A DNA stretch of 64,000 nt from Turneriella parva DSM 21527 (lineage in GTDB: Bacteria; Spirochaetota; Leptospiria; Turneriellales; Turneriellaceae). Where the stretch lies: NCBI RefSeq assembly GCF_000266885.1, contig NC_018020.1, positions 3,286,001 to 3,350,000 on the forward strand. The letters are read 5' to 3'. Below the pieces are notes generated by a model. That model worked only from the letters and a program-made list of their open reading frames with translations, was not told where the DNA came from and searched no databases. Both the position numbers and the translations under genes were made by a program. Shown piece after piece: positions 16,233-27,318 of the stretch. Within the stretch, counting starts at the first letter, position 1; every line of letters starts with the position of its first letter.

Positions 16233-16290
16233 TCCCCCTCCCGTCCTCCCCCGCAAGCGGGGGAGGTGCCCGCAGGGCGGTGGGGGACAC
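16233..16290. repeat. GC-rich REP-like palindromic repeat
   Basis: Immediately after the barrel-gene stop, CTCCCCCGC-AA-GCGGGGGAG forms a near-loopless perfect stem, flanked by an outer pair of C-rich and G-rich tracts (CCCCCTCCCG and GGCGGTGGGGGAC). Such C/G-rich palindromes are often dispersed intergenic repeats. It can also act as a strong RNA stem between the two genes. It belongs to a different family from the one at 10633-10720. Confidence 0.65.
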
Positions 16291-16301
16291 TAGGAGTTAC
16301 A

Positions 16302-18341
16302 ATGAAAGGAATGAAGTTATTGGCTGGATTTTCAATGTGTTTGGGGCTGATGGCCTGCAAAGGCGATGTGTCTCCTGCCAAACTTAGCGGCAACGCATCT
16401 CTGCGCCTCGCCGATGGCTCACCCATTTCACAATCCGCCACAACGGAGTATAATCCGTACGTCGTGAAAATGCCAGATGGTTTTCTCATGCTTGTTTTCG
16501 GTTCTGACCGCTCTTGTGGCGGATGTACCGCCGGGACGCACAACATTCTGGTGGCGCGGTCTCTGGCTGCATACAACGACGACGCCAGGCTGCCTGCTTT
16601 CAGCACGCCGACGGTATTTACTGTGGGGGGCACGCCGCTCAATTCGGCCACCGCAGTGAGTTTTGTCGCAACGAAGAGCTCCGCACTGCTGCGCATTTAT
16701 CTGGCTAATGCCGGTATAATACAATACGCCGAGCTAACACCGACGGCGACGCCTTATAATGTGGCGGCGTTGTCATCGATCGCCCAGGCGACTCTGGCGC
16801 GTTCAACGCTTCTGGGTATCGACGCAACCGGGGGCAAACTGTTCGCCAAACATGCGTCTGCATCGCAACCGTTTTATTTTGAGCCGATGCAGAATACCCG
16901 GGGCATGACGCGCATATCAGCCAGCACCGATGCAACAGCTGTGCTCCACGTATCAGCGGACACGACGGGCCAGTCGGACGCATTTCTTGCGCTCGTGAAT
17001 GGCGCTGTCGTGAGTGTGTCACACGGCGCTCAGGGCGCAGAGCTGACGCAGCTTGCGGCGGTCTTCAAGAATGCGAAGGTCAATGTGAAATCTCTGAGCG
17101 TACTCCATGCAGCCGCGAAAGCTGGCGAATTGGTGTTTCTCTCAGGCAGTGAAGCTGGCGATACAAAGCAGGATCTTTTCGTACTCGAAGGCTCGAACGC
17201 CGGCTCACTTTGGGAAACCCTGAGCTCGCGACCCGCTTCGGGGTCAGCTGCCTATGCGGCCTGGACACAGCCGCAACTAACGGCCACGCGCGTCTATGGA
17301 CAGAATGGTTCATTCACCTGTAATGTGATCAACAACAATAACTCGGGCTGCGTCTCTGGTGGGGCCACGCCCAACGACAGGAGTTTTGAGCGTGCCTTTA
17401 CGGTTTCGGTCTCTGACAATGGCATCTATGTGGCCGATCAATACAATAATCGCGCCCTGTACTTTCCCGGGGTTTCTCTGAGTGCCACGCGTGTCTACTG
17501 CCAAAGTGGTAATTTTAACACGCGGATTTTTGGTGGCACTCCGAATTCGCAGACTTGTCGTGGCCAGGGCACATATGGCAATGTACCATCAGTCTTTGCG
17601 GATAATTCTGGCGTGTACCTGAACGATATTGAGTCCAGTCGTATTCTCTACTTCGCGGGCACAAATATTGATGCGGCGTCGGGTTTGGGCGGTCGCGTCT
17701 ACGGACAGGCCGGCAATTACGCGACATTTGCGTCCTCTACTACAGACCAGGGGCTATTCAATCCCGATTCCACTGCCGCAGATGCGACAGGTGTTTACGT
17801 GGCAGACACTTTCAATAATCGCATATTGCATTACCCGGGCACATCAACCACGGCAGATCGTGTTTATGGCCAGCCAAACTATACCACGAATACGGCAGGG
17901 ACTTCGGCTACAAGCCTCAACGGTCCACGTGGTTTGGCGATTGCGCCCGACGGGTTGTATGTTGCAGATACGGGGAACAACAGAATAGTTTTCTTTCCCG
18001 GTACGTCGACGACCGCCAGCCGTGTTTATGGGCAGCCAGACTTTACGTCGAATACGGCGGGTACAACAGCTGGTTCGTTAAATTCTCCGTGGGGTATTCG
18101 CTTTTTCGCAGGTGGTATCTATGTGGCAGACTACAACAATCACCGCGTGCTCTATTTCGCTCCAGAGGCCACTGTGGCCACGCGCGTATGGGGGCAGGGC
18201 GGCAGTTTTACGGCAAACACCGCGAACAATGGGGGACTATCGGCAAGTTCATTGAACTTTCCTCCTGGGCTCGACGTTGACCAAACAGGACTATACATTG
18301 CCGATTCTCTGAACCATCGCGTACTTTTCTTTCCGCGCTGA
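16302..18341 (+). CDS. NHL-repeat lipoprotein
   Basis: The ATG at 16302, with AGGAG five bases upstream, gives 679 residues with lipobox LMAC (Cys19). Residues about 30-335 form an uncharacterised beta-rich domain. From residue about 340 to the end there are about six NHL-type repeats, each with a GIYVAD.YNNR.LYFPG strand set and a spacer of the RVYGQPDFTSNTAG type, making a six-bladed propeller. Such lipoproteins are frequent in Leptospira-related genomes and are likely surface-exposed and ligand-binding. The start at 16266 is rejected because it lies in the REP-like repeat. The gene follows the interrupted barrel gene and may share its transcript. Confidence 0.88.
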   Translation: MKGMKLLAGFSMCLGLMACKGDVSPAKLSGNASLRLADGSPISQSATTEYNPYVVKMPDGFLMLVFGSDRSCGGCTAGTHNILVARSLAAYNDDARLPAFSTPTVFTVGGTPLNSATAVSFVATKSSALLRIYLANAGIIQYAELTPTATPYNVAALSSIAQATLARSTLLGIDATGGKLFAKHASASQPFYFEPMQNTRGMTRISASTDATAVLHVSADTTGQSDAFLALVNGAVVSVSHGAQGAELTQLAAVFKNAKVNVKSLSVLHAAAKAGELVFLSGSEAGDTKQDLFVLEGSNAGSLWETLSSRPASGSAAYAAWTQPQLTATRVYGQNGSFTCNVINNNNSGCVSGGATPNDRSFERAFTVSVSDNGIYVADQYNNRALYFPGVSLSATRVYCQSGNFNTRIFGGTPNSQTCRGQGTYGNVPSVFADNSGVYLNDIESSRILYFAGTNIDAASGLGGRVYGQAGNYATFASSTTDQGLFNPDSTAADATGVYVADTFNNRILHYPGTSTTADRVYGQPNYTTNTAGTSATSLNGPRGLAIAPDGLYVADTGNNRIVFFPGTSTTASRVYGQPDFTSNTAGTTAGSLNSPWGIRFFAGGIYVADYNNHRVLYFAPEATVATRVWGQGGSFTANTANNGGLSASSLNFPPGLDVDQTGLYIADSLNHRVLFFPR

Positions 18342-18440
18342 CTGCAGAATTTCGCAAGTCCCGTTAATGCGCCGCACTATATACTGACAGTGGCGTCATT
18401 ATTTTGCAACCGGGGAAGATACTCAGGCATCTCACTACTG

Positions 18441-19583
18441 ATGAAACTTGCTGTTAAACGGCCGCCCGTCGGCCGAACCCAATGGGTATCGATCGCGTTT
18501 CTTAGCCTATCACCGGTCATTGGCTTTGGTTCGCTTGCGTATTTCATGACTACCGGTACGCTTACTTCAGCGACGCTGGTGCTGGCGCTGGTGATTGCCA
18601 CCGTCGCTGGCATGGGCACAACCGCCGGCTACCACCGGCTGTTTTCGCACCGTTCATACGAAGCAGCTTTGCCGGTGCGCATCGTTATGCTGCTCATCGG
18701 TCTCCTGGGCCTGCAGGGTTCGGCGCTCGAGTGGTCGCTCGACCACCGCACGCACCACAAGTTTGTCGACCGCGACAAAGACCCGTACAGCATCACCAAA
18801 GGCTTCTGGTTTGCGCACATGCTTTGGATCTTCAAAACCAGGGCACGCGATTGGCGGCCATCGCACAATGCCGACCTCTTTCGTGACAAATTCGTATTTT
18901 TTCAGCACCGCTACTTCATGCCGCTGGCAATTGCCGCCAACTTTGTTCTGCCTGCGGCCATCGCCGGTATCTTCTGGGGCGACATATGGGGGGGATTTCT
19001 CATCGCCGGGTTTCTGCGCCTCGTCTTTACGCATCACTCCACCTTTTTTATCAATTCACTCTGCCATATTGCCGGCTCGCAGCCATACAGCGATAAGCAC
19101 ACCGCACGCGACAACGCGATCACCGCATTCTTCACGTGGGGCGAAGGCTACCACAACTTTCACCACGAATTCGCGAACGACTACCGCAACGGCGTGCGCT
19201 GGTACCAGTACGATCCGGGAAAATGGGCAATTAAGCTCTTGTCATATCTGCGCCTTGCTTCGAATCTCAAGCGCGTGCCCGACACAACCATCAAACAGCG
19301 GCGCATGCAGATGCAAAAGGGCGAGCTGCTCTCAAAACTGGAGAAATGGGGCTGGACCGAAGAGCGCCAGCAGCTCTTTCGTGCGCAGCTCGATGAGACC
19401 TTTGCTGCATTCAGGCGGCGTGCTACGGTGATGAATGAAATCCGCAACCGCATGAAGACCGATGCCGTGCAGGCCACCCAGCGCCGTTTCGAGCTGATGC
19501 AAGAGCGTTATGCACGCCTGCAAGATGCCGTTGAAGAAACGGCGATACAATGGAAATTGCTGCGCCGTCGTGCGCGTTCGTGA
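18441..19583 (+). CDS. Membrane fatty-acid desaturase (acyl-CoA delta-9 type)
   Basis: The three histidine boxes of the stearoyl-CoA desaturase family are intact: HRLFSH, HRTHH and EGYHNFHH, which bind the di-iron centre. Four hydrophobic helices surround them. The enzyme would introduce a double bond into saturated acyl chains to adjust membrane fluidity. ATG 18441 gives 380 residues; GTG 18390 is in frame and would add 17. The last 100 residues or so, after the catalytic core, are a charged helical extension (RRMQMQKGELLSKLEKWGW through the end) with coiled-coil character, longer than usual. A GC hairpin at 19606-19622 separates it from the convergent aminotransferase gene. Confidence 0.92.
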   Translation: MKLAVKRPPVGRTQWVSIAFLSLSPVIGFGSLAYFMTTGTLTSATLVLALVIATVAGMGTTAGYHRLFSHRSYEAALPVRIVMLLIGLLGLQGSALEWSLDHRTHHKFVDRDKDPYSITKGFWFAHMLWIFKTRARDWRPSHNADLFRDKFVFFQHRYFMPLAIAANFVLPAAIAGIFWGDIWGGFLIAGFLRLVFTHHSTFFINSLCHIAGSQPYSDKHTARDNAITAFFTWGEGYHNFHHEFANDYRNGVRWYQYDPGKWAIKLLSYLRLASNLKRVPDTTIKQRRMQMQKGELLSKLEKWGWTEERQQLFRAQLDETFAAFRRRATVMNEIRNRMKTDAVQATQRRFELMQERYARLQDAVEETAIQWKLLRRRARS

Positions 19584-22194: not shown

Positions 22195-22878
22195 GTGAAG
22201 CAATCGAGTTGCCCTTCATGCGGTGCCCCGCTCACTTTCGAAAATGCGCACAGTCTTTATGCCGTTTGCAAGTACTGCCGTACCATGTCCGTACAGACAG
22301 AAGATGCGCTCAAAGAAGTCGGCAAAACCGCCGCACTCGTCGAAGATGGCTCACCCCTGCAGCTCGGCACAACAGGCACAATCGATGGCAAAACTTTCAA
22401 GATCGTGGGCCGCATTCAGTACCAGTTTGGGCTCGGCTTCTGGAACGAATGGTATATCTCGATTGACAGTGACGATGCCTGGCTCGGTGAAGCGAGCGGA
22501 CTTTATTTTTATACGCGGCTAAAAAAAGACGCAAAAATACCCGAGAATCTTGAATTTGCCAATCTTTATGCGGGTGCGCCCGTAACGATCGACGGCAAAG
22601 AATTTTTTGTCAAAGACATGCAGACAAGTAAGGTGGTTTCGGGCGAAGGTGAACTTCCCTTTCCGTTCGAGACAGCGTATGAAGCGCCCGTCGTCGATCT
22701 GGTACGCCACGACGGCACGTTTGCAACGATCGATTTCAGCGAAGACGGTTCGACCGGGCTCACCGCAGGTGCCCCGCTGGTGTTTATCGGCCGGCCGCTG
22801 CTTTTCAGCGATCTGAATTTAACGCGAATTCGTTCGGTTTATGGTTTCAAGGCTTCGGCCGCCGAGGTCGCGTCATGA
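22195..22878 (+). CDS. Zinc-ribbon DUF4178 protein
   Basis: GTG 22195 places the zinc-ribbon CPSCG...CKYC near residues 6-30; a TTG three codons earlier is also possible. The rest (about 200 residues) is beta-rich DUF4178: GTTGTIDGKTFKIVGRIQYQF, then W..WYISIDSD and LPFPF. DUF4178 proteins are known from conserved operons with DUF350 membrane proteins and sometimes stomatin-like or spermidine-synthase-like partners; their biochemical role is not established. The next gene overlaps its stop by four bases (ATGA) and encodes a second, larger DUF4178 protein. Confidence 0.82.
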   Translation: MKQSSCPSCGAPLTFENAHSLYAVCKYCRTMSVQTEDALKEVGKTAALVEDGSPLQLGTTGTIDGKTFKIVGRIQYQFGLGFWNEWYISIDSDDAWLGEASGLYFYTRLKKDAKIPENLEFANLYAGAPVTIDGKEFFVKDMQTSKVVSGEGELPFPFETAYEAPVVDLVRHDGTFATIDFSEDGSTGLTAGAPLVFIGRPLLFSDLNLTRIRSVYGFKASAAEVAS

Positions 22879-24692
22879 GCGAACGCGTGAACGATAGCCT
22901 CGCGCCGCAAGAATCGGCGCCCGTAGAGGCTAAAGGATTTAAATGCCCCAACTGCGGCGGCCCGGTAAATCTTGAACTGCCGGGCAAATCGCAGACAGTC
23001 CGCTGCCCTTATTGCAGTTCAATACTTGAGCCTGAGCACGACGTGCTCGTGCTGCGCGATAAGTACAACGAAAAGCTCAAATACCGTATGTGGATTCCCC
23101 TCGGGGCCACAGGCAGGTTGGGTGGCGTCGAGTTTAAGTGTGTCGGCATGGTCGTACGTGGCGACGACGACGGTGGCGAGTGGAGCGAATACTTGCTGTT
23201 TAATCCGTACCATGGGTATCGCTACCTCGTAGAAAGTTCTGGCCATTGGACTTTGGTGCGTTCAGAACCCGGCCTCGGGTTCGACTCCTCTGGCAGACCG
23301 GGCATGACCGGCCCCACCGGCAAGATTCAGCTCGCCGGCAAAAAACTCAAATATTTCACACATTACGATGCGACCGTTAAGAGTATCGTCGGCGAGTTTC
23401 CGTGGCAGGCATCTCTGGGCGAAGAAAATGAAGTCACTGAATATATAAATCCCCCTTACCAGGCTTCGTGCGAAGTAGTGTATGCCTATGTCGACAAGAA
23501 TGGTAAACAATACAGCAAGAAAGAACTCGAAGATCTGGCGAACGAGGCGAAGCGCAGCAACGCCGATCGCGGCGAAGAGCTGAACGAAATAACGCAGAAC
23601 CGGCGTCTGACCGAAAGTAACTGGTCTATCGGCGAATATAAATATCCCGAAGAGATTCAGGCTGCATTCGACCTCAAAGAAATGCCCGCGAAAGTTGGGT
23701 TTGGCATGTGCGAGCCCAACCCGGCGAAACGGCGGTTTTTGTTTGCCCTCGCATGGTCGGCGATGCTGTTTCTGGCGACAACAGTCACGTGTTCTATTGT
23801 ATCGGGGCGTGCAGAAAGCAAGCCTGTGTTGAACCGCACGCTGTCTCTGAACTCCGCAGAGTTTGAATACAAAACCGAAGGTGCGACCGATTATCTCGAA
23901 TTCAATTTTGAACCCGGCGAGATTGAGCTGCCGAAAGAAACGAACGTCGAATTCAGATTTTCATCTTCGCTGAGCCAGCAATGGATCAGTTTCAATGTCT
24001 TCATGATCAATGAGGCGACCGGCGCGGGTTATATTTACGATGGGGAGCTTTCGCGTTACTACGGCGGCAGCGGAGAAGACGCCTGGTCAGAAGGCAGCAA
24101 CGATACCGAATTCGAAACGGAAAAGATGCCCGCAGGCACGTATTACCTCTTTGTCGCCGGAGCAACCAATGTCGGCGTGGCTGAATTCAAGACTTCGCTC
24201 TTGCGTTACGGACAGCGCATCGATGCGCCGCCCGTGCCGGCTACGGGCATGCTCGGCAAGGCGCAACCTGGCAAGACTGCTGGGGCAAGCGCTGCTCCGC
24301 TGAAGCTGTCGCCTGCCGAGGCGCGCATGCGCATAATTGCCCTCTTCAAAAAGTACGACCCGGCGAAAGCTGCGCAGACTGATGCGCTGCTAAGAACCTA
24401 CAAGGGTCGCGAAGCGCAGCTCGTTGCTGAACTGCAGGCCAAATATGAACCCGCAGCGGCAGCGGCCGGCACAGCGCCGCCGCAGGCTGCTGCCCCGGCA
24501 GCAGCGGGCAAGACGGGTAAACTTCTGCCGATGGATTTTCCCGGCAGGGCATTTGCGCCCAAGCTGACAATTACCATGAATGCCAAGCGTGACGTCGCTT
24601 CGGTCGGTTCGGCCGTACTTTTTGTCTTTACGCTTATTGGCTTTCTGATCTATTATTACATTCGTTACCGCATGAAAGAAGGGGAAAGATAA
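22875..24692 (+). CDS. Large zinc-ribbon DUF4178 membrane protein
   Basis: The 605 residues begin with a zinc ribbon (FKCPNCGGPVN...RCPYCSS, residues about 22-50). A DUF4178 region (about 60-220) contains WIPLGATGRLGGVEFKCVGMV and WSEYLLFNPYHGYRYLVE. A membrane helix near 290-312, a beta-sandwich domain, an Ala/Pro-rich linker, and a second helix near the C-terminus (AVLFVFTLIGFLIYYYIRYR) follow. The beta domain between the two helices is probably outside the cytoplasm. It overlaps the upstream DUF4178 gene and, by one base, the small downstream TM gene, so the four are translated as a unit. Confidence 0.82.
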   Translation: MSERVNDSLAPQESAPVEAKGFKCPNCGGPVNLELPGKSQTVRCPYCSSILEPEHDVLVLRDKYNEKLKYRMWIPLGATGRLGGVEFKCVGMVVRGDDDGGEWSEYLLFNPYHGYRYLVESSGHWTLVRSEPGLGFDSSGRPGMTGPTGKIQLAGKKLKYFTHYDATVKSIVGEFPWQASLGEENEVTEYINPPYQASCEVVYAYVDKNGKQYSKKELEDLANEAKRSNADRGEELNEITQNRRLTESNWSIGEYKYPEEIQAAFDLKEMPAKVGFGMCEPNPAKRRFLFALAWSAMLFLATTVTCSIVSGRAESKPVLNRTLSLNSAEFEYKTEGATDYLEFNFEPGEIELPKETNVEFRFSSSLSQQWISFNVFMINEATGAGYIYDGELSRYYGGSGEDAWSEGSNDTEFETEKMPAGTYYLFVAGATNVGVAEFKTSLLRYGQRIDAPPVPATGMLGKAQPGKTAGASAAPLKLSPAEARMRIIALFKKYDPAKAAQTDALLRTYKGREAQLVAELQAKYEPAAAAAGTAPPQAAAPAAAGKTGKLLPMDFPGRAFAPKLTITMNAKRDVASVGSAVLFVFTLIGFLIYYYIRYRMKEGER

Positions 24693-24895
24693 TGTTGAAA
24701 GACATTCTGAAAATGTACGTCTTTCTGCCGCTTTCGCTCATGATGTTTGTCTGGTCGGCGCACCGCATGCTGACGCAGGCTGGCGGCAAAGAGCCCATGA
24801 CCGCGCAAAACCTGAATGTTAAAAATATACGGGCTAACCCGACGTCGTTCAGGTCTGTCTACATGCCGCGCATACTCTCTGGTGGCGGCAAATAA
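24692..24895 (+). CDS. Small single-TM protein of the DUF4178/DUF350 operon
   Basis: This 67-residue product has one N-terminal hydrophobic helix (residues about 9-24, VFLPLSLMMFVWSAHRML) and a polar C-terminal half ending in GGGK. The start ATG shares a base with the upstream TAA (TAATG), which supports coupled translation and a real gene. No family is recognised. It may be a small subunit of a membrane complex formed with the neighbouring proteins. Confidence 0.65.
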   Translation: MLKDILKMYVFLPLSLMMFVWSAHRMLTQAGGKEPMTAQNLNVKNIRANPTSFRSVYMPRILSGGGK

Positions 24896-24897
24896 CC

Positions 24898-24957
24898 ATG
24901 AAAAAACTGAATTATAAAATTTTGTCAGAGAATCTGAAAGTGAAGAGGTCACCATGA
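24898..24957 (+). CDS. Possible 19-residue micro-ORF coupled to the DUF350 gene
   Basis: An ATG two bases after the previous stop opens a 19-codon frame (starting MKKLNYKILSE) whose TGA overlaps the DUF350 ATG as ATGA. It could be a coupling or leader peptide, or no more than a start-codon-like relic: its first codons resemble those of the DUF350 gene (both MKKL). No independent ribosome-binding site is evident. Confidence 0.25.
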   Translation: MKKLNYKILSENLKVKRSP

Positions 24958-25244
24958 AAAAATTGATGTTCTATCTGCTGCTCGCCGGCGCGGCGTTTGC
25001 ACAGGCGGCTGAGCCCGTGCGCACCAAATTGCCCTTGCTCGACCTTGAGCATGTACTGGCTGTTCTGGTCTATTCGGTAATTGGCATTGTGGTGATGGTG
25101 CTGTCTTTTGCGATCATCGATTGGGTGCACCCGCGGGATATCTGGGGCGAAATTGCCGATAAACAGAACCGGGCAATGGCGATTGTTTTCGGCTGCATGA
25201 TGCTCGGCATTGCCATCATCATTGCTGCCGCAATCGTTGGCTGA
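24954..25244 (+). CDS. DUF350-family membrane protein
   Basis: The 96-residue protein has a possible signal-like N-terminal helix (MKKLMFYLLLAGAAFAQA) and two further hydrophobic helices (VLAVLVYSVIGIVVMVLSFAIID and AMAIVFGCMMLGIAIIIAAAIVG) separated by the polar loop WVHPRDIWGEIADKQNRA. This matches one DUF350 unit, a small membrane domain usually found in DUF4178 operons. GAGG upstream (near 24949) supports the start. Function is unknown in the family. Confidence 0.8.
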   Translation: MKKLMFYLLLAGAAFAQAAEPVRTKLPLLDLEHVLAVLVYSVIGIVVMVLSFAIIDWVHPRDIWGEIADKQNRAMAIVFGCMMLGIAIIIAAAIVG

Positions 25245-27318
25245 AGACGCTCCCGCTTCGAGTACGCCCGTGCGGCGGCGTACGCTTCTCAGATGGTTCT
25301 TGGTCGCACTCGCTCTGCTGCTGATGGCAGCGGTAGCGGGTGTCTGGTATCTGAGAAAGAACTTCTCATCGGAAAAAATAAAGGCAGAGATTTCTGCTCT
25401 CGCCCAGAAATACAGTGGTTTTTCACTCACAGTCGATGAAGTTGACCTGACCTGGTCAGGCGATGTGCGCCTAAGGCGCATCTGTCTCAAGAACCCGCGC
25501 ATGGTTTCAGACAGGTGTTTCGTCTCGGCGAACATAGTTTCGCTCGATCTTGCGCTTGCGCCACTCTTAAAGAAACAGGTAGAGGTACGCGGTGCGCACT
25601 TCGATCGCCTTGAGGTGAACTTCTTCACCGAACGGCCTGCAGGTACGAAGACCGATGTTGGCAGCTGGCAGGGCAAAAATGTCGCGCCAGAAGCGAATAT
25701 CGGTGAATCGCAGCGCTCTGGCAGCGACGCACGTTTCAGGCTCAAATCGCTGCGCGTGACCAATGGGGCGATATTGCATGAAGTGAGGGTCTTGCCGATA
25801 CCCTTAGGCAAGACGAGCTTTGAAGCAAAGCTCGACTATGCTGCTGAGCGGCAGCGACTGACCGGAGCGATGCAGTTTGCCGATGCGTCGCGTATTGACG
25901 CTGACCTTGATATTGAGAGCGCTAACCTCATTGGCTTTGTCAGGCAAATTGCTGCGGGCCAGACGGTGGGTGAGGCCCACAAAACCAGCGGCACGCTGAA
26001 ATGTACCGGCCTCAATCTGGGTGTTTTCGATTCGCGCCTGCAAACGCTGAATGGCAGCCTCGCCGTAAAATCGTCGGGGCAGGTGATCACGCTGAAATCT
26101 GAAACGGCTACTATTGGCGTGCTGCAGCCATTGCGCTTAGATCTCGTGTGGGCCGGCGAAGTGGGGATTGATATCGTCAAGCTAGCCTTAACCTCGGGGC
26201 AGGGCAAACTCACCGGCCCCGGTCTTAGCCTCGAATACTCTGAATTAGGTGTTGACCAAAAACAAAATTTGAAAGTTCTTTTCGCCCTCGCCGCCGAACT
26301 TTCAGCCCTGGCCGGAAAAATCTCCGGTGCGGCAAATATCAAGGGCAGCCTGCATCTTTCCGGTAAGTACGAGAACTCAGTACCGAGCGCGTACCTCAAG
26401 GCAACAAATCTTTCGGTACAGCGCGGCGGCCTGCCTGCCGTCAGCGCCGAGGTATTGAATGCCAGCCTGCAGGGAAAAAACATAGCCTTCAGCAAGCAAA
26501 AGCTTCAGCTCGGCGGGCAGCCGTTCGAGGCGAGTGCGAATATCCAGTTTGCGGGCGGTACGCCGGTCGCGAGCGGCAACGTCGACTTTAAGGTGCTGAA
26601 GCCGAACCAGTTATTTTCGGGCGACAAGGGCACGGGTGCGGCAATAGAATTCGCACCTTTCTCGGCGCAGTTTATGCGCACGCCGGCAGGTATTCGTCTC
26701 GAAAAAATCTCCACGGGTTTTTCGCGCGGCACGATTACCGGGTCATATGCCTATGATACGACCGCCGAACGCCATGCTGCGCGCCTAACCCTCAGCAAAA
26801 TCAAAACGCAGGACCTAAGCGAAGCGCTGAAGCTCAAGGCAACTGTTTTCGCCGTGCTCGACGGGCGCTGCGATCTGGTATTTGCCGGTGAGAATCTCGA
26901 CGCGATCAAGAAGAATGTGACCGGCTCGTTAATCGCAGCGATTGGCCGTGGAAAGATCAAAGACAGCTTCTTGCAAAAGGGAATATTGAATGGCCCGTTG
27001 CATAAACTCGAAGAAAAATTCTCAGATACCGAATTTGAATCTGCTGCGATTGAGGCGAGTTTCAACGCCGGTGCGGTTAGCCTGAAAAAGCTCAGTTTCG
27101 ATGCGGGCGAATTTGACGTCAGCATGCGGGCCGAAGCCGCCTCAGGTGGGCAGGGCAAGGCGACGCTCAACTTTCGCTTTCGTTCGAGCTTTGTTGAGAA
27201 TGTGGCGAATCCGCTTCACATGGGCATCGAAAACCTGCGCGAGGGCGATTATTATAACCTGCCCTTTGCCTGTCGCGGCGATGTCTTCAGCTCGGCGTGT
27301 TATGTGAAGAATTGGTGA
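25210..27318 (+). CDS. AsmA-like membrane-anchored protein
   Basis: Up to 702 residues: an N-terminal anchor helix (RWFLVALALLLMAAVAGVWYL) precedes a long beta-rich periplasmic region typical of AsmA/TamB-related proteins (VDEVDLTWSGDVRLRRICLKNPR near the N-terminus; the TIPR-like AKGKIKDSFL and FNAGAVSLKKLSFD region towards the C-terminus). Such proteins are thought to bridge the membranes for phospholipid transport. The frame opens inside the DUF350 gene; candidate starts are TTG 25210, TTG 25237 and GTG 25270, and the last fits the helix best. It converges closely on the MFS gene. Confidence 0.72.
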   Translation: MPSSLLPQSLAEDAPASSTPVRRRTLLRWFLVALALLLMAAVAGVWYLRKNFSSEKIKAEISALAQKYSGFSLTVDEVDLTWSGDVRLRRICLKNPRMVSDRCFVSANIVSLDLALAPLLKKQVEVRGAHFDRLEVNFFTERPAGTKTDVGSWQGKNVAPEANIGESQRSGSDARFRLKSLRVTNGAILHEVRVLPIPLGKTSFEAKLDYAAERQRLTGAMQFADASRIDADLDIESANLIGFVRQIAAGQTVGEAHKTSGTLKCTGLNLGVFDSRLQTLNGSLAVKSSGQVITLKSETATIGVLQPLRLDLVWAGEVGIDIVKLALTSGQGKLTGPGLSLEYSELGVDQKQNLKVLFALAAELSALAGKISGAANIKGSLHLSGKYENSVPSAYLKATNLSVQRGGLPAVSAEVLNASLQGKNIAFSKQKLQLGGQPFEASANIQFAGGTPVASGNVDFKVLKPNQLFSGDKGTGAAIEFAPFSAQFMRTPAGIRLEKISTGFSRGTITGSYAYDTTAERHAARLTLSKIKTQDLSEALKLKATVFAVLDGRCDLVFAGENLDAIKKNVTGSLIAAIGRGKIKDSFLQKGILNGPLHKLEEKFSDTEFESAAIEASFNAGAVSLKKLSFDAGEFDVSMRAEAASGGQGKATLNFRFRSSFVENVANPLHMGIENLREGDYYNLPFACRGDVFSSACYVKNW

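Follow-up and report, generated by a model that had tools for sequence, protein, structure and literature searches.

Fusions of a bacterial membrane protein with an aminopropyltransferase were reportedly the subject of work by Li et al. in 2019. An operon combining CesT/PspA, a synthase, DUF350 and DUF4178 is described in the available part of PMC11237479, which suggests aminopropylation of other substrates. The available part of PMC12803844 (2025) states that the bacterial membrane fusions were shown not to make spermidine or spermine, and that of PMC12492005 links yjfIJKL to heat tolerance; a lysine tail is mentioned in none of the three. The word ‘lysine’ occurs 0 times in the main text of PMC11237479, and the literature searched, which lacked most subscription papers, yielded neither a proposal of a lysine-tail acceptor nor a link of AsmA to DUF4178 or DUF350. 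Here we analyzed an operon of Turneriella parva DSM 21527 with two DUF4178 genes, a small transmembrane (TM) protein gene (TM67), a DUF350 gene and an AsmA-like gene. It lies in a stretch of 64,000 nucleotides (NC_018020.1, positions 3,286,001 to 3,350,000), referred to as the window; the genome containing it (G000) has 4.41 Mb in two contigs. The features compared below are as follows, in window coordinates unless contig C1 is named.

22195 to 22878, plus strand: DUF4178A, 227 residues, N-terminal zinc-ribbon cysteines and then DUF4178 (PF13785, E 2.6e-13), no TM segment.

22875 to 24692, plus strand: DUF4178B, 605 residues, zinc ribbon, DUF4178, TM segment, beta domain and TM segment (PF13785, E 2.4e-13).

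23736 to 24650, plus strand: TM-beta-TM half of DUF4178B, containing an Ala/Pro-rich insert that is genus-specific and poorly modelled.

24692 to 24895, plus strand: TM67, 67 residues, a single TM segment and a tail ending in RILSGGGK; proposed acceptor protein.

24881 to 24892, plus strand: C-terminal Gly-Gly-Gly-Lys of TM67, taken from the genus alignment and the comparison across phyla.

24898 to 24957, plus strand: a 19-codon micro open reading frame (ORF), judged not a conserved gene.

24954 to 25244, plus strand: DUF350 protein, 96 residues (PF03994, E 2e-15), half-length, with one two-TM unit and a hydrophobic N-terminus.

25237 to 27318, plus strand: AsmA-like protein, 693 residues (PF05170, E 4.5e-12), with a TTG start overlapping the DUF350 stop.

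C1 239074 to 240612, minus strand: fusion of seven TM segments (7-TM) with a spermidine-synthase domain (PF01564, E 8.8e-32), unlinked to the operon in this genome.

C1 3275004 to 3276572 (L152:2505-4073), plus strand: orthologue of a flavin adenine dinucleotide (FAD) amine oxidase, located beyond the window, 32 kb ahead of the operon.

Like the CesT/PspA operons, as far as the available text describes them, the locus has DUF4178 and DUF350 as neighbors and a homologous TM-beta-TM part, with a synthase in the same genome. Unlike them, it has no CesT or PspA, its synthase is unlinked, and it carries two zinc-ribbon DUF4178 genes, a half-length DUF350 and AsmA instead. Escherichia coli YjfIJKLMC/YgiBC resemble it in DUF350 (YjfL) and in having a membrane-anchored protein whose tail is Gly-rich and whose C-terminus is fixed, whereas an ATP-grasp ligase replaces the aminopropyltransferase, the tail is Gly-Gly rather than Gly-Lys, and DUF2491 and DUF1190 stand in place of DUF4178 and TM67. 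The unlinked synthase belongs to the membrane protein-aminopropyltransferase fusions, for which a candidate acceptor is proposed here. The fifth gene exceeds the cut-off of the AsmA family (46.0 bits, cut-off 29.8). The gene neighborhood was already known; what is new is the conserved terminal lysine of the small TM protein.

We propose, with a probability of roughly 0.4, that the operon is one half of a bacterial envelope aminopropyl-transfer module whose enzyme half is elsewhere in the genome. The operon would encode the membrane or scaffold half, and the unlinked fusion synthase with the oxidase, of the twin-arginine type, would be the other half. That the operon belongs to the module is very probable, while the specific chemistry, with the terminal lysine of TM67 as the aminopropyl acceptor, is put forward tentatively. 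Computation shows the operon's place in the module, the unlinked position of the synthase, the conservation of the tail, and the fold and seven TM segments of the synthase; the acceptor, the membrane side, what DUF350 and DUF4178 do and whether AsmA takes part are inferred.

DUF4178 was found in 16 of 61 genomes of the phylum, this one counted, and DUF350 in 24 of the 61, the two being on the same contig in 15 of the 16 DUF4178 genomes. The order of DUF4178, small TM and DUF350 is kept in 13 of the 16, the window's own among them, with several of the 16 loci cut by contig ends. Thus the initial annotation, which saw an operon with a recurring family set of no known function and named a lack of conserved gene order as what would speak against it, is borne out by comparative operon analysis. 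In nine of the 11 DUF4178 genomes outside the genus, the cluster includes a protein of about 500 residues joining seven TM segments to a spermine/spermidine-synthase domain, and in two of the 11 (G007 and G013) the contig ends before the synthase position.

In the window's genome, the fusion synthase is 3.07 Mb from the operon along the contig, or 1.3 Mb the opposite way if the contig is circular. In a tree of 16 fusions, rooted only at the midpoint, a 100/99 branch has on one side the seven that are unlinked, from genus members and G013, and these neighbor linked fusions. The synthase partner has been displaced from the operon, not lost. The initial annotation had listed polyamine-synthase and SPFH partners as missing. 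The former is true of the locus but misleading, as this genome does carry the orthologous 7-TM synthase; SPFH is absent among the eight proteins scanned around the locus, as is a GSP_synth ATP-grasp gene, neither being sought genome-wide.

Strong matches to the fusion TM domain occur in 16 of 61 genomes, a weak match of another kind in G050 being dropped, and the fusion and DUF4178 occur together in 14 genomes (Fisher p 6e-10, relatedness ignored). Four genomes have one without the other: G004 (82% complete), G007 (54% complete), G005 (DUF4178 domain cut by a contig end) and G006. In several relatives, an FAD amine oxidase gene follows the synthase, and synthase and oxidase orthologues are retained in most genus genomes. 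The G000 oxidase has the twin-arginine motif NRRSFLAY. S-adenosylmethionine (AdoMet) decarboxylase is represented in this genome by one 313-residue frame with two weak pieces (36.7 and 25.5 bits, cut-off 25).

The lysine tail, absent from the initial annotation as was the AsmA-like fifth gene, was noted in spirochaete loci ahead of a wider scan. All 17 small TM proteins of the spirochaete loci end in [GH]K, with Gly or His before the lysine, and have little in common beyond the TM segment and the terminal lysine. All six sequences of the genus alignment end in an unchanged GGGK, even though their TM segments vary over much of their length. TM67 has no Pfam family match.

In the wide scan, the 7-TM domain of 14 fusions was the query, and the best 80 of 585 confirmed matches were taken. 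By record titles, they come from Gastranaerophilales, Nitrospirota, Bacteroidetes, Acidobacteria, Gemmatimonadota, Clostridia and others, with several proteobacterial groups, Plesiocystis, Lentisphaerales and Elusimicrobia also taken in. Seven of the 80 were excluded beforehand for short upstream sequence, leaving 73 testable loci with at least 900 nt upstream. The slot was defined for an ORF ending in [GH]K whose stop is no more than 850 nt ahead of the synthase start or 60 nt beyond it. Such an ORF is in the slot at 60 of the 73 loci, compared with 0/73 on the reverse strand and 15/666 in other same-strand stretches. Called small TM genes end in [GH]K in 14 of 15 cases in the slot versus 0 of 39 outside. 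In some cases (L074, Bacillota loci) a larger protein carries the tail fused at its C-terminus. Of the 60 matches, 14 are below a simple TM threshold, and some of the 60 are long or fused ORFs.

Among the 13 misses, L118 and L120 do carry a lysine-tail ORF, though at another place in the cluster, and five loci (L075, L077, L079, L088 and L105) have a relative of the glutathionylspermidine-synthetase-type ATP-grasp ligase (PF03738 in the four scanned; phmmer for L105). An adjacent membrane or lipoprotein-like protein ends in Gly-Gly at all five. Ligase relatives thus occur at 5/13 misses and 0/60 lysine-tail loci. E. coli YjfM (...HWGG) and YgiB (...SMGG) also end in Gly-Gly and adjoin YjfC and YgiC, named peptide--spermidine ligases by RefSeq. 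TM67, ending in Gly-Gly-Gly-Lys and not Gly-Gly, does not fit the ligase type. The tail end thus tracks the enzyme, a Gly carboxylate with an amide ligase and a lysine amine with an aminopropyltransferase. In E. coli K-12, yjfM and ygiB (L143 and L145) encode DUF1190 proteins with a Gly/Ser/Arg-rich tail before the Gly-Gly.

A replicate sample was drawn from the phylum of the Plesiocystis genome, with 282 genomes, 93 of which match at E 0.001 or better; at 1e-30 or better there are 76 matches, 75 of them at new loci and 73 testable. With the preset slot, a [GH]K tail was found at 39/73 loci and on the reverse strand at 0/73. Four more loci have the tail just outside the slot, seen by eye as truncated ORFs with no visible TM segment. 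When the remaining 30 were widened to 7-14.6 kb, nine had a same-strand tail passing a TM and composition filter, bringing the total to 52/73, with a widened-control rate of 2/244 stretches. At L246, L248 and L250, a TM protein on the opposite strand ends in SK or GK. The association of tail and synthase is strong, though not universal within one gene cluster; as the window's own genome illustrates, parts of the module may lie at a great distance from each other.

A few synthase neighborhoods show other features. Across the genus, a one-TM protein of about 400-440 residues abuts the unlinked synthase (L052:7617-8945, minus strand, and L053-L056, L058), with a conserved C-terminal motif FLIDSL...IGELELMRQLGRF and no Pfam match; as a lysine-tail partner it was rejected, since none of its seven versions ends in lysine. 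The L122 genome (G065) has two distinct fusion synthases. A Paraglaciecola 7-TM synthase (L073:9740-10924, plus strand) is beside a PrnB-family gene (PF08933, E 1.5e-197), and no lysine or Gly-Gly tail was found there.

The precision of the tail bears on a different explanation, possible but rather unlikely, in which a complex of DUF350, DUF4178 and the small TM protein senses membrane stress or remodels the membrane, akin to PspA operons. The substrates of the synthase would then be polyamines or lipid headgroups, with the lysine tail making only electrostatic contact with the membrane or a partner. The tails are indeed rich in basic residues, the available text of PMC11237479 counts DUF4178, DUF350 and the 7TM-synthase fusion among CesT/PspA operon members and suggests membrane dynamics, and G015 has CesT, PspA, DUF4178, DUF350 and the synthase all together. 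However, general electrostatics explain neither why the lysine is fixed at the very end nor why Gly-Gly replaces it precisely at the peptide-spermidine-ligase loci. Furthermore, the sole PspA match in the window's genome (C1:2435909) is 872 kb from the operon, and PspA occurs without DUF4178 in G006 and G010, so that PspA was rejected as a hidden partner, being unlinked and not co-distributed with DUF4178.

AsmA directly follows DUF350, at the synthase's place, in all six genus genomes with the locus (G000-G005; the G005 contig is cut within DUF4178B), and its starts overlap the DUF350 end or nearly abut it. This arrangement would suit a genus module rewired around the AsmA-like protein for outer-membrane lipid transport, with the distant synthase unrelated. 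Such rewiring is improbable, as the terminal GGGK stays invariant in the six genus sequences, as though the tail role persisted, and most genus genomes keep the two enzyme orthologues. It is equally improbable that the tail serves in sorting or processing and is recognized by a protease or sortase-like factor rather than by the synthase: Gly-rich tails with a fixed C-terminal dipeptide may resemble processing signals and the relative L033 has an adjacent VanY-type carboxypeptidase, but no protease is consistently present in the loci mapped, an argument limited by the loci having been found via the synthase.

The proposed aminopropyl transfer draws on the enzyme itself. The catalytic domain matches solved spermidine synthases both in sequence (E to 1.8e-27) and in predicted structure (1uir, 1.9e-16), and the D-x-P-D-P motif is kept in 16 aligned fusions, G000 included. 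An Arg directly before the active-site Tyr (R269 in L121) is invariant in 36 aligned fusions, and three solved enzymes aligned have Tyr, Ile or Cys at this position. It is a speculation that R269 meets the carboxylate of the C-terminal lysine. The AlphaFold2 model of the L121 synthase (mean confidence score, pLDDT, 92.3) has seven long helices ahead of the catalytic domain, and positive-inside loop charges favor an inside N-terminus in 36/36 fusions (36 of the 65 full-length ones listed). With the N-terminus inside and seven helices, the catalytic domain is therefore placed outside. A loose twin-arginine pattern occurs in 14 of 25 oxidases, two of the 14 (L103 and L115) being judged mis-extended ORFs; twin-arginine motifs on oxidases fit an outer-face reaction.

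TM67 would display a flexible tail ending in lysine, whose side chain, with its amine on four carbons, is similar to half of putrescine. Most likely, aminopropyl is moved by the synthase domain from decarboxylated AdoMet onto this side-chain amine, probably outside the cytoplasmic membrane. DUF350 in the membrane, the cytoplasmic zinc-ribbon DUF4178A/B (the location of DUF4178A being a prediction) and the TM-beta-TM part would hold or gate the complex, and the oxidase may act on the aminopropylated product. The broader claim that in many phyla a membrane-embedded aminopropyltransferase, its catalytic domain at the outer face of the cytoplasmic membrane, modifies the C-terminal lysine of a small tail-anchored protein, and that an ATP-grasp/Gly-Gly branch reaches a similar end, is doubtful.

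Several points weigh against the aminopropyl-transfer proposal. First, the synthase and the operon are 1.3-3.1 Mb apart in this genome. Second, G006, 99% complete and of the same genus, has the synthase and the oxidase but lacks DUF4178, DUF350 and TM67; it is a true exception to the co-occurrence of synthase and DUF4178, where the synthase may act on another acceptor. Third, L071, L073, L078, L086, L092 and L094 (6/73) have neither tail type, and 18/73 replicate loci have no lysine-tail protein within about 7 kb, mostly with one DUF350 subtype. Fourth, flank charges favor an outward tail only weakly (1.9 Lys plus Arg before the TM segment and 1.3 after, n = 34), and if the catalytic domain faces outward, decarboxylated AdoMet must be available outside or pass through the 7-TM domain. 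Lastly, the E. coli tail ligases use ATP and should be cytoplasmic.

The two DUF4178 proteins and DUF350 named in the initial annotation pass the Pfam gathering scores at their positions, with 50.8 bits each for PF13785 (cut-off 25) and 57.5 bits for PF03994 (cut-off 26). DUF350 covers only profile positions 4-66 of 133, and a full-length four-TM DUF350 was ruled out, half the profile being matched. The overlapping stops and starts once described for the four genes hold for DUF4178A/DUF4178B (ATGA) and DUF4178B/TM67 (TAATG) and not for TM67/DUF350, which are separated by a 58-nt gap. DUF350 has a Shine-Dalgarno-like AGAGGT of its own, and the AsmA-like gene starts at TTG 25237, five bases ahead of the DUF350 stop codon. 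GTG 22195 is a plausible DUF4178A start, because G007 has ATG there and G004 has no start codon just upstream.

The 19-codon frame suggested to link translation to DUF350 does exist, but its stop is merely the ATGA of the DUF350 start, and the suggested link is not supported. No counterpart is present in G001, G004, G005 or G007; all that G003, the nearest relative, has in its place are GTG/TTG frames of 11 codons, and G002 has an unrelated 17-codon frame. As the frame is not conserved among relatives, it was rejected as a coupling device. Independent internal promoters are not evident, as promoter-like sites in the operon are near chance (6 versus a shuffled mean of 3.5, standard deviation 1.9), and the terminator count is near the shuffled mean (11 versus 8.0). 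Elsewhere in the window, 16266-18341 (plus strand) encodes a 691-residue protein with repeated NHL/beta-propeller-like motifs, and 18390-19583 (plus strand) a His-box protein resembling fatty-acid desaturases, both by eye only.

DUF4178B has the makeup first ascribed to it, and the smaller DUF4178 protein differs in having no TM segment. Four zinc-ribbon cysteines are invariant in 26 aligned sequences, hydrophobic segments lie at residues 288-306 and 574-592, and the beta domain between them is modelled confidently by AlphaFold2. The mean pLDDT is 79.5, with low values at residues 435-475 and 527-558, within the Ala/Pro-rich insert (about 435-560). The TM-beta-TM half aligns across 25 other DUF4178B proteins. 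In hhalign, tails of other DUF4178B proteins match the stand-alone TM-beta-TM protein (98.4%, E 5.1e-15), and the genus tail matches those tails (99.6%, E 2.2e-24). The genus tail matches the stand-alone protein at 65% only (E 6.1e-5), a weak match because of the genus-specific insert. By these profiles, the half is homologous to the stand-alone TM-beta-TM protein of CesT/PspA-type operons, which explains the unusual architecture of the larger DUF4178 protein. The beta domain is predicted to be outside the membrane from the charges flanking both TM segments.

Sequence searches for solved relatives of DUF4178A and DUF4178B gave nothing convincing (best 0.72 and 0.017). A fold search with whole DUF4178B, not the DUF4178 domain alone, gave matches all to the beta domain (residues 313-575, Z up to 9.2), namely jelly-rolls of capsids, carbohydrate-binding modules, and collagen-binding and p24 domains. 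They were set aside as a functional clue, the arrangement being common. In G009, G018 and G022, both DUF4178 domains are in one protein, which argues that DUF4178A and DUF4178B of the window act as a pair. Overall, what the initial annotation observed is partly confirmed and what it made of this is partly supported.

The terminal lysine, swapped for Gly-Gly beside a ligase, provides a specific acceptor candidate for the fusion synthases. If the proposal is true, it would put DUF350 and DUF4178, families of no known function, into a common biochemical context and bring E. coli YjfM and YgiB under the same logic. The transfer would be a new kind of post-translational modification, and in either branch the envelope would expose a protein tipped with a polyamine, the ligases achieving this by joining spermidine to the Gly-Gly tail.

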